From Thermoplasmata archaeon (lineage in GTDB: Archaea > Thermoplasmatota > Thermoplasmata > Thermoplasmatales > GCA-001856825), in assembly GCA_021797855.1 (NCBI GenBank), contig JAJZYX010000004.1, positions 1 to 64,000 of the forward strand: a stretch of 64,000 bases of DNA, written 5' to 3'. Position 1 is the stretch's first letter. Every line of letters begins with the position of its first letter. The translations under genes were made by a program, and so were the position numbers. Positions 30,987 to 33,703 of this stretch are shown one piece after another. The notes under the pieces were generated by a model. That model was not told the origin of the DNA. It did not search any database and saw nothing but the letters and a program-made list of their open reading frames with translations.

Positions 30987-31005
30987 CTTGAACGAAGGCT
31001 TAAGC

Positions 31006-31617
31006 GTGGAAGACCAAAGAGCTGCCGCAGGGGAATCAATGCAAGGAGAAATATTATGTAGAAAGTATTTAGATTATGTTTCCTATCACAAGACCATGGC
31101 GGATTTAAGGGATCAGGTCGTTGAGGATAGAGGTATAATCAAGAAGATTCAACTTCTGTTCCCGGGTTATCACGGATACAGGATAAACGAAGATTTGAGG
31201 GATGCGGATGTGATCCTCAAGGACGAGCTCTACAAGAAGATGCTTGATGTCATAGCGAAACTCAAGACAGGCGAGAGCTCGCTCGTGAGTGCAGGACAGT
31301 TCAAGGGACTGGAGGCAATCGGAGCCTTAAGGTCCAGGATGCAAACAGCAGCAGAGGACGTGAAACACCATAGTGCTGGCTATTCCGGCATTTCCGCACC
31401 AATAAAAGTTGACGCGAAGAAAATTTCCGCCCTTTATGATTTAGACATGAAGATCTTTGACCAGATTCAGAGCCTCCAGAGGGGAGTTTCTGATTTTGTT
31501 AGCAAATGCGCTTCAGGGAGCATAGATCAATCCAAGCTGCAGGAGATCGATGCGGTAATTTCGTCTATAACGGACTTGAACAACAGCAGAGAAAACCTCC
31601 TGTATGGGGGTGTTTAA
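31006..31617 (+). CDS. Unknown helical protein heading the SPFH/zinc-ribbon operon
   Basis: A protein of about 203 residues of no family I recognise. It looks almost entirely helical: a first segment to about residue 75 (including YLDYVSYHKTMADLRDQVVE), a middle part with amphipathic repeats, and a last helical hairpin (about 145-200). No signal peptide or transmembrane helix. Its stop touches the next ATG (TAA ATG), and GGGGGTG at its 3' end is the ribosome site for that gene. Likely a structural or adaptor partner of the two following proteins. Confidence 0.65.
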   Translation: MEDQRAAAGESMQGEILCRKYLDYVSYHKTMADLRDQVVEDRGIIKKIQLLFPGYHGYRINEDLRDADVILKDELYKKMLDVIAKLKTGESSLVSAGQFKGLEAIGALRSRMQTAAEDVKHHSAGYSGISAPIKVDAKKISALYDLDMKIFDQIQSLQRGVSDFVSKCASGSIDQSKLQEIDAVISSITDLNNSRENLLYGGV

Positions 31618-32778
31618 ATGGTATTCGGCAAGAAGGGTGGTGATATACCCTCGAAGGGAGGGAGCGTTTTCGGTTCAACTACATTCGAGTGGGAAGATCA
31701 GTTCAAACAGGGGAACATCATGTGGAAGGTCCCCAGGCTCATCAGACTGAACGACAACGTCGTTGTGAGGGAAGATGAAACCGCAGTCTTCTTCAGGGAT
31801 GGGAAGGCTATTTGGTACATCGACAAACCGGGGAGGTATGCACTCACAGACCTCAACGCTCCAATTGTGGGAGGACTTGTCAAGGCGCTAACAGGAATCC
31901 AGCAACAGGCTTACGTCTATTACCTCCAGAGGAGAATAATAGATGGCAAATTCGGGTCAAAGGAACCTTACGCCTTCAGGGACAAGGATTTCGATATAGT
32001 CATGCTGAGACTCTTCGGTGATATGAGGTACAGGATATCAGACCCATCCATCTTCATCAACCAATTTGTGGGTACCTTCAACGCAGAGACAAGCGCTGAT
32101 GTCGAGAGCAGAATAAGGGATCAGGTAGTACTGCTTATATACAACATCCTAGGAAAGATGAAGGATCAGGGAGTCTCGGTCCTTGACCTTCCCTCAAACC
32201 TGTTGAACATAGAGGAGGCCGTGCTCGCTTCTTCAAAGGCAGCCTTTGATCAGTACGGAATTGAAATTAACAAGATATCCGGACTCAACATCTCGCTTCC
32301 GGAAGCAGTGCAGAAGGCGATTGATACCCGTTCAAGCATGAAGGTTGTAGGCGCAAACTATCTTCAGTTTCAGGCGGGTCAGGCGATGGTCGATGCCGCC
32401 AAGAACCCTGGCGGGACTGCTGGTGCCGGAGTAGGACTTGGAATGGGTCTCGGTGCAGGCGCAGGAATGGCGTATCCAATGGCATCCAATATAACGCAGG
32501 GGATGAGCCAGCAGCCCCCCCAACAGGAGAGGAAGGTGAAGAAGTGTCCGAAGTGCCAGACGGAGGTAGACGAGAACGCGAAATTCTGCCCGTCATGCGG
32601 GTATAATTTTGAGTCAGACCAGTTGATGAAATGCCCGAGCTGTGGAAAGGATATCCCCAAAACCTCAAAGTTCTGCCCTGAGTGCGGGAAGCCGATAGTA
32701 ACAAAATGCCTGAAGTGCGGAACTGAAATTCCAGCTGGGGCTAAGTTCTGTCCAAATTGCGGAGAAAAGGTGGTATGA
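31618..32778 (+). CDS. SPFH / virion-core-like protein with three C-terminal zinc ribbons
   Basis: A 386-residue protein. The N-terminal region (about 1-260) matches the YdjI/COG4260 group of SPFH-type proteins: TFEWEDQFKQGNIMWKVPRL, then VVVREDETAVFFRDGKAIW, and ISDPSIFINQFVG. A Gly/Ala-rich linker (about 262-300) is followed by three double-CxxC zinc ribbons (about 307-330, 336-358, 362-384). Relatives bind membranes or assemble rings in stress responses; B. subtilis YdjI works with zinc-ribbon partners and PspA. No transmembrane helix is seen. Confidence 0.8.
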   Translation: MVFGKKGGDIPSKGGSVFGSTTFEWEDQFKQGNIMWKVPRLIRLNDNVVVREDETAVFFRDGKAIWYIDKPGRYALTDLNAPIVGGLVKALTGIQQQAYVYYLQRRIIDGKFGSKEPYAFRDKDFDIVMLRLFGDMRYRISDPSIFINQFVGTFNAETSADVESRIRDQVVLLIYNILGKMKDQGVSVLDLPSNLLNIEEAVLASSKAAFDQYGIEINKISGLNISLPEAVQKAIDTRSSMKVVGANYLQFQAGQAMVDAAKNPGGTAGAGVGLGMGLGAGAGMAYPMASNITQGMSQQPPQQERKVKKCPKCQTEVDENAKFCPSCGYNFESDQLMKCPSCGKDIPKTSKFCPECGKPIVTKCLKCGTEIPAGAKFCPNCGEKVV

Positions 32779-32779
32779 G

Positions 32780-33703
32780 TTGTATTGCAGGAAGTGCGGC
32801 TCCCAGATTCCGGACGATTCAGACTTTTGCCCGAAATGCGGTGCACCTCAGAAGGTAGGGTCTGGCCAAGCTCAGTCCGGCGAGAAACCACAGGACCAGG
32901 AAGAAGTTCTCAAGGAAATGAAATGCCCCAACTGCGGTGCTCCTCTGAATCCTGCATCCGGCGAAGCGATGGTAGTGTGCAGCTACTGCGGTACATCAAT
33001 ATCCCTAGGCTCGCTCGGATGGACCAAGGTCGAGAAACACTTCATTCTTGACATAAAGGTACAGATGAGGGATCAGGCAGAGCAGATTGCAAAGGAGTTC
33101 CTGGACAGCAGCATCTTTCACAGACATCTGTTCGAGAAAAGCGAGCTGAAGAAATCGGAGTTGAATTATCTCCCCTACTGGATAATTGACGCTGGATACT
33201 CCGCCCAATATCAGTACAAGAGGGAACAGGTAAACCCAGGTGGGTTTGTTGCAGTTGGAATGGGAGGAAGGGGAGGCTTCGGGGGGCCCACTGTCAACAT
33301 CCAAACTATCGTTGAATCCGGATCGGACGTGAATGAGGTAAGCTACCCGGTTATAGCAATAGAGAACATGAACCAGTACCAACCTCCTGATTATGTGTTC
33401 AACCTCGCTGCAAAGAGACCCATAGGACAGACCGACATGAACGGTCCGGTGAAACTGCTGAACGGCACGATGGGGGAAGAAAAGGCGAGAATGGAAGGTA
33501 AAATAAGAATTCAGCAGTGGGAAATCAGAAAATTACAGAGGACAGTGAGAGGATTCCTGTCAGCAAGCGTTACGGTTGACTTGGCGGATATGTATCTGGT
33601 GCACATCCCGATCTGGTCTCTCCAATTTCAGCACAAGGACCAGACGATATTCCTCCTGATCGATGCACACAATGCAAGGGTAATGGAAGAAACGAAGTCC
33701 TAA
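32780..33703 (+). CDS. Zinc-ribbon protein of the SPFH operon (YdjG-like)
   Basis: A 307-residue protein. Zinc ribbon 1 (CRKCG...CPKCG, residues 3-21) is followed by a linker and zinc ribbon 2 (CPNCGAPLNPASG, then VVCSYCGTSI, about 49-75), then a beta-rich domain of about 225 residues with a Gly-rich loop (VGMGGRGGFGG). TTG at 32,780 is chosen because AAAGGTGG lies just ahead and no other start fits before the first CxxC. It sits two bases after the SPFH gene's stop. The domain set resembles bacterial YdjG/YdjH-type partners of SPFH/virion-core proteins. Confidence 0.72.
   Translation: MYCRKCGSQIPDDSDFCPKCGAPQKVGSGQAQSGEKPQDQEEVLKEMKCPNCGAPLNPASGEAMVVCSYCGTSISLGSLGWTKVEKHFILDIKVQMRDQAEQIAKEFLDSSIFHRHLFEKSELKKSELNYLPYWIIDAGYSAQYQYKREQVNPGGFVAVGMGGRGGFGGPTVNIQTIVESGSDVNEVSYPVIAIENMNQYQPPDYVFNLAAKRPIGQTDMNGPVKLLNGTMGEEKARMEGKIRIQQWEIRKLQRTVRGFLSASVTVDLADMYLVHIPIWSLQFQHKDQTIFLLIDAHNARVMEETKS

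Follow-up and report, generated by a model that had tools for sequence, protein, structure and literature searches.

What does a YdjI-type SPFH gene serve in an archaeon in whose class PspA is undetected, and what is the helical protein encoded directly in front of it? This question is raised by a three-gene locus in the stretch of Thermoplasmata DNA analyzed here (64,000 nucleotides of contig JAJZYX010000004.1; hereafter the window). In the first-pass annotation, the locus was read as an archaeal version of the COG4260/YdjI arrangement of Bacillus subtilis, in which the helical first protein replaces PspA or the membrane anchor.

Layout of the operon and the start of gene 1

The three genes lie on the same strand and are separated by gaps of 0 and 1 base (Table 1), as had been annotated. 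In contrast, the annotated start of gene 1 at 31006 was too early. Orthologs of gene 1 start at the methionine encoded at 31096, and a strong third-position bias extends from 31096 onward across all three genes. Comparison of relatives over 30988-31095 revealed indels, with changes spread evenly across the codon positions. Therefore, the ortholog starts and the codon-position bias, together with a BRE/TATA-like element ~27 nt upstream, place the start of gene 1 at the ATG at 31096. The same element is found at the same distance in other members of the genus (L026-L029), and AT-rich TATA-like boxes occur at a similar position upstream of gene 1 in L030-L033. Judged from sequence, the element may be an archaeal BRE/TATA pair, which would give a leaderless or near-leaderless operon transcript.

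The genes are under purifying selection, with third-position differences of 50-63% compared to second-position differences of 4-18%. The locus is flanked by a malic enzyme gene on the opposite strand and by an M61 peptidase gene downstream. The nearest relatives retain these flanks; other families do not.

Table 1. Coordinates of the genes and features of the operon (positions in the window).
Feature	Position	Strand	Description	Basis
Gene 1	31096..31617	+	173 aa, helical	Start from orthologs and codon bias
Gene 2	31618..32778	+	386 aa, COG4260/YdjI-type SPFH	Pfam
Gene 3	32780..33703	+	307 aa, TTG start, YdjG-like	Pfam, AlphaFold2
BRE/TATA-like element	31060..31073	+	AGAAAG-TATTTAGA	By eye; genus conservation
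Gene 2 zinc ribbons	32536..32775	+	Three, residues ~307-386	Sequence, Pfam
Gene 3 zinc ribbons	32783..32998	+	Two, residues ~2-23 and ~47-73	Pfam

The three proteins

The gene 2 protein contains a Band_7_1 domain (PF13421; residues 42-243, 1.1e-33, score 117 vs. a cut-off of 24), followed by a Gly/Ala/Met-rich linker (~262-305) and by three C-terminal stretches matching Zn_Ribbon_1 (1.1e-23). Its SPFH part shares 42-89% identity with those of 14 diverse relatives. B. subtilis YdjI has the same build, i.e., an SPFH domain, a low-complexity region, and a C-terminal zinc finger, without an anchor of its own (PMC8581546). By its domain, linker, C-terminal ribbons, and lack of a TM segment, the gene 2 protein can be assigned to the COG4260/YdjI-type SPFH proteins. 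YdjI is not mentioned in the main text of a study on SPFH subfamilies (PMC2636767), and the PDB sequences matched by gene 2 were small zinc-ribbon proteins only. A strongly diverged SPFH-ribbon protein is encoded directly after gene 1 at L076:5481-6590, and the SPFH matches of the class family that includes this locus (f11) score just ~1e-13 to 1e-17. In families f8, f19, and f23, SPFH matches contain one or two in-frame TGA/TAG stops (G115:C50, G102:C43, G113:C10, G175:C28, and others), which possibly arise from extension of the reading frame beyond the start into upstream sequence.

The gene 3 protein starts with two zinc ribbons (Zn_Ribbon_1, 4.1e-13). The earlier count of five ribbons in the last two genes is thus correct, and all five are of the Cys4 type. 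In the AlphaFold2 model of this protein (mean pLDDT 87), the ribbons are followed by helices and long strands, and the segments YLPYW... and HIPIW...LIDA suggest that the beta-rich region is a duplicated unit. PepSY/YpeB (PF03413) matched 6 of the 33 gene 3 relatives (best 4.4e-4), with the window protein itself unmatched. A TM segment is absent from gene 3 in the window and in close relatives, but is present in more distant ones. In YdjG of B. subtilis, two ribbons precede a YpeB-related domain and a TM segment (PMC11237479), and on sequence the gene 3 protein can be described as YdjG-like. Its model gave nothing significant against PDB folds; the best Foldseek matches were pore-forming proteins (E 0.1, TM-scores <0.15), which we judged to be noise from the long beta strands.

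No Pfam family was found for the gene 1 protein. However, it is matched by NCBIfam NF047596, the LIMLP_15305 family of Leptospira (E 1.3e-5 to 1.9e-5), in an alignment that covers 155 of 175 positions. The same model matches 66/66 aligned archaeal relatives of gene 1, with a best value of 5.8e-18. The scores (25 bits for the window protein, up to 64 bits for relatives) are far below the curated cut-off of 210 bits, and gene 1 is therefore a distant relative rather than a member of this equivalog. The sequence matches support homology to NF047596, but not membership in the family. Gene 1 had been described as family-less, which holds for Pfam, but overlooks this distant kinship. No known unrelated family matched it.

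Two motifs, PG[YF]xGYRxxEDLRxAD and HxxxGYSGIS, are conserved in gene 1. R29, D33, and Y96 are among the invariant residues of the protein. Its AlphaFold2 model (mean pLDDT 81) has five helices and places both motifs, PGYxGYR..ED and GYSGIS in their invariant parts, in or beside loops. The first-pass annotation had proposed comparing gene 1 with PspA/Vipp1 by profile and predicted structure. The model has no significant match among PDB folds, with no PspA/Vipp1 among the 50 best listed, and hhalign of the gene 1 profile against five archaeal PspA proteins gave a probability of 0.3%. With Pfam also giving no match, gene 1 was rejected as a PspA homolog at the sensitivity of these comparisons. 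Nor does the predicted model, in the same comparison with PDB folds, place gene 1 in an ESCRT-III-like fold. Sequence matches of gene 1 in the PDB were nearly all designed helical bundles (best 0.008) and were judged compositional. As the gene 1 and gene 3 models both lack a significant PDB match, their function cannot be read from the fold.

At two loci (L073:4773-5507 and L159:4752-5528), gene 1 is fused to an N-terminal Cys4 zinc ribbon of its own, which is a further tie to ribbon partners. In L155, the frame labelled gene 2 is 705 aa long, but it is not a gene 1 fusion because gene 1 is a separate frame there. A second, stand-alone gene 1 paralog (~23-27% identical) is found in the window's own genome (G000:C6:231596-232048) and in relatives L046-L055; it occurs in two adjacent families, one of which is that of the window. 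The L046 paralog adjoins genes for a zinc alcohol dehydrogenase and a cobalamin-independent methionine synthase-like protein, with no SPFH gene nearby.

Linkage, distribution, and membrane partners

The genes had been expected to stay together in related genomes, and the gene-order survey bears this out. An SPFH gene directly follows gene 1 in 115 of 122 ortholog loci, a set that includes some loci from two collections and comprises ~110 distinct ones. Six of the others are at contig ends; in the remaining locus, L132, the SPFH gene is also next to gene 1, but its called start is over-long. Gene 2 thus directly follows gene 1 in 116/116 loci where the contig continues. The gaps between these two genes are mostly -4 to +16, and the flanks are unrelated. 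Orthologs of gene 1 were found in Thermoplasmatota, Methanoperedens, ANME-2, Methanocorpusculum, and Methanomicrobium genomes, so the pair spans Thermoplasmatota and Halobacteriota. As the other neighbours vary, gene 1 and gene 2 form a functional pair and do not merely reflect general synteny. Gene 3-like proteins are encoded nearby in 20/20 loci of the order and in ~60% of loci elsewhere.

Among 101 genomes of the order, gene 1 is present in 52 and the SPFH gene in 53, the difference being one fragment. The NF047596 model search found gene 1 in 102 of the 150 genomes of the class: 97 have both genes, 5 only gene 1, 4 only the SPFH gene, and 44 neither. The module is absent from about half of the order's genomes and is therefore dispensable. 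A plasmid search returned no bacterial gene 1 homologs, and the viral contigs searched gave no match. Plasmid-borne bacterial SPFH genes had neighbours other than gene 1 in the two cases inspected.

The hydropathy threshold for a TM helix was not reached by any of the three window proteins, in line with the earlier reading, and from sequence the products of the window's locus look soluble. This leaves gene 1 unsupported as the membrane anchor, a role that had been suggested for it, as does the composition of larger loci, where the membrane element consists of a separate 4-TM gene and TM-bearing ribbon proteins. Some or all of a set of extra module genes are found at the locus in Methanomicrobiales, Methanoperedens, and DHVE2, as well as in several other Thermoplasmata. 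Two of these encode ribbon proteins (~250 and ~340 aa) with TM segments at the C terminus, another a ribbon protein of ~197 aa that is soluble, and the last a 4-TM protein of ~112 aa; this last gene lies directly upstream of gene 1. The 4-TM gene has this position in 37 of 116 loci. At L061, L087, L094, L104, L134, L135, and L140, the SPFH pair is accompanied by the small 4-TM protein and by ribbon proteins that have a pair of TM segments at the C terminus; beyond the ribbons, these proteins have no Pfam match. At the locus of the window and of its nearest relatives, both the 4-TM protein and TM-bearing ribbon proteins are missing. When 21 relatives were searched with the 250-aa type, nearly all matches were to the ribbons of gene 3-like proteins; a search of the same relatives with the 4-TM protein, run without a positive control, gave no match.

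Many loci, including that of the window, have no nearby TM partner, which counts against a membrane reading. The lack of TM segments in all three window proteins would fit a protein-quality-control or assembly scaffold, in which the SPFH-ribbon oligomer would hold cytoplasmic protein or RNA clients, with gene 1 as a co-factor and the membrane as a secondary matter. Protein or nucleic acid is a common ligand of Cys4 ribbons. A chaperone-like role has been proposed for the band-7 and TPM partners of PspA (PMC11237479). However, TM partners are common among relatives, and the partly annotated neighbourhoods showed no further conserved gene. We consider such a client scaffold doubtful.

Co-occurrence with PspA and ESCRT-III

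PspA_IM30 (PF04012) was over its cut-off in 0/150 Thermoplasmata genomes, with 9 of 14 control genomes positive. Snf7 was over its cut-off in 15 of the 101 genomes of the order. Gene 1 is present in 2 of these 15 genomes compared to 50 of the 86 others (Fisher 0.0016, uncorrected for phylogeny). This suggests that Snf7 and gene 1 seldom share a genome in the order, but the pattern is not exclusive, as both occur in G065 and G084. The module coexists with PspA in 4 of the 16 genomes that carry named loci, among them two Methanoperedens and one ANME-2 archaeon; since these lineages hold both, there is no simple swap. Strict mutual exclusion of the module with Snf7 or PspA is ruled out by the genomes that hold both.

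These distributions bear on whether gene 1 is a non-homologous functional replacement of PspA or ESCRT-III, which would polymerize on or coat membranes and be recruited by gene 2 as YdjI recruits PspA. The lack of detectable PspA in the class and the scarcity of gene 1 in Snf7 genomes are consistent with this, and gene 1 comes first in the operon, as pspA does in pspA-ydjGHI. On the other hand, the gene 1 profile does not match PspA, the five predicted helices are shorter and have no PspA-like match among the 50 best PDB folds listed, and the module coexists with PspA in some archaea and with Snf7 in the two genomes named above. The claim that gene 1 replaces PspA therefore fails as far as homology is concerned; a functional replacement is possible, given that PspA was undetected in the 150 genomes, but it appears unlikely. 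The broader idea that gene 1 founds an undescribed membrane-maintenance family, which together with the SPFH platform does the job of PspA/ESCRT-III in archaea lacking both, is similarly improbable. A third reading would make the locus a relative of ESCRT or vesicle-sorting systems, like the Meth_adaptin loci, which combine an SPFH-zinc-ribbon protein with Vps4 and ESCRT-III. An SPFH protein with a coiled coil and a zinc ribbon has indeed been reported in Meth_adaptin ESCRT loci (PMC10936438). However, Snf7 is mostly missing from the genomes of the order in which gene 1 occurs, and we consider such a relationship highly improbable.

Proposed role and comparison with known systems

We favour the reading that the operon encodes a YdjI-type peripheral-membrane scaffold complex, with gene 1 as the obligate partner, gene 3 as a YdjG-like partner, and a role in membrane stress (probability roughly 0.55). 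The operon would most likely be an archaeal relative of the YdjGHI platform in reduced form, with gene 1 as a previously undescribed obligate subunit. That it is an archaeal version of the COG4260/YdjI arrangement, as first annotated, is supported by its being kept as a unit. In this complex, gene 2 would oligomerize via its SPFH domain and display its ribbons on the flexible Gly-rich linker. Gene 1 would dock on gene 2, probably via the invariant PGYxGYR..ED and GYSGIS loops, and gene 3 would join as a zinc-ribbon/PepSY-like partner. In many relatives, the 4-TM protein and the TM-bearing ribbon proteins may tie the complex to the membrane. In the window's lineage, which lacks these parts, the membrane would be reached, if at all, by surface contacts of the SPFH domain or by the linker. 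The analogy with B. subtilis PspA-YdjGHI suggests that the complex may act in envelope stress and would most likely sense or stabilize stressed membrane regions in archaea without PspA. This membrane-surveillance role is proposed because YdjI is required for PspA at the membrane and in turn depends on YdjG and YdjH (PMC8581546).

The module is thus a concrete candidate in the matter of how PspA-less archaea monitor or repair their membranes. It is a small, expressible test case, since none of its three proteins has a TM segment and the first is tied to SPFH across two archaeal phyla. Gene 1 adds a conserved subunit not described before, whose two invariant loops can be mutated, and the relatives offer candidate membrane partners in the 4-TM protein and the TM-bearing ribbon proteins.

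The SPFH-ribbon arrangement is already known from YdjI and from the Meth_adaptin ESCRT loci of Methanobacteriales (PMC10936438); among the open-licence papers searched, none was found to describe gene 1 or the way it is linked to SPFH. Like the window's operon, the Meth_adaptin loci are archaeal, membrane-related, and hold an SPFH protein with a zinc ribbon. In contrast, their Vps4, ESCRT-III, and adaptin-like proteins are not among the genes kept with the module. The Leptospira LIMLP_15305 family resembles gene 1 in that its model matches the window protein and all 66 aligned archaeal relatives, but the archaeal scores of 25-64 bits set these proteins apart from it at a cut-off of 210 bits. 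The B. subtilis pspA-ydjGHI operon differs in several respects: the first gene of the window's operon is not pspA, and no pspA is present in it; gene 3 lacks the TM segment of YdjG; the gene order is unlike; and relatives of the window's operon use another, 4-TM protein, with no YdjH/TPM domain in the Pfam scans of those neighbours that were scanned. Nevertheless, in both operons a helical protein is encoded first, a two-ribbon protein is present (gene 3 and YdjG), with a possible PepSY/YpeB-like region in gene 3 going by the matches in 6 of its 33 relatives, and gene 2 resembles YdjI in its SPFH domain, low-complexity linker, C-terminal ribbon or ribbons, and lack of an anchor of its own.
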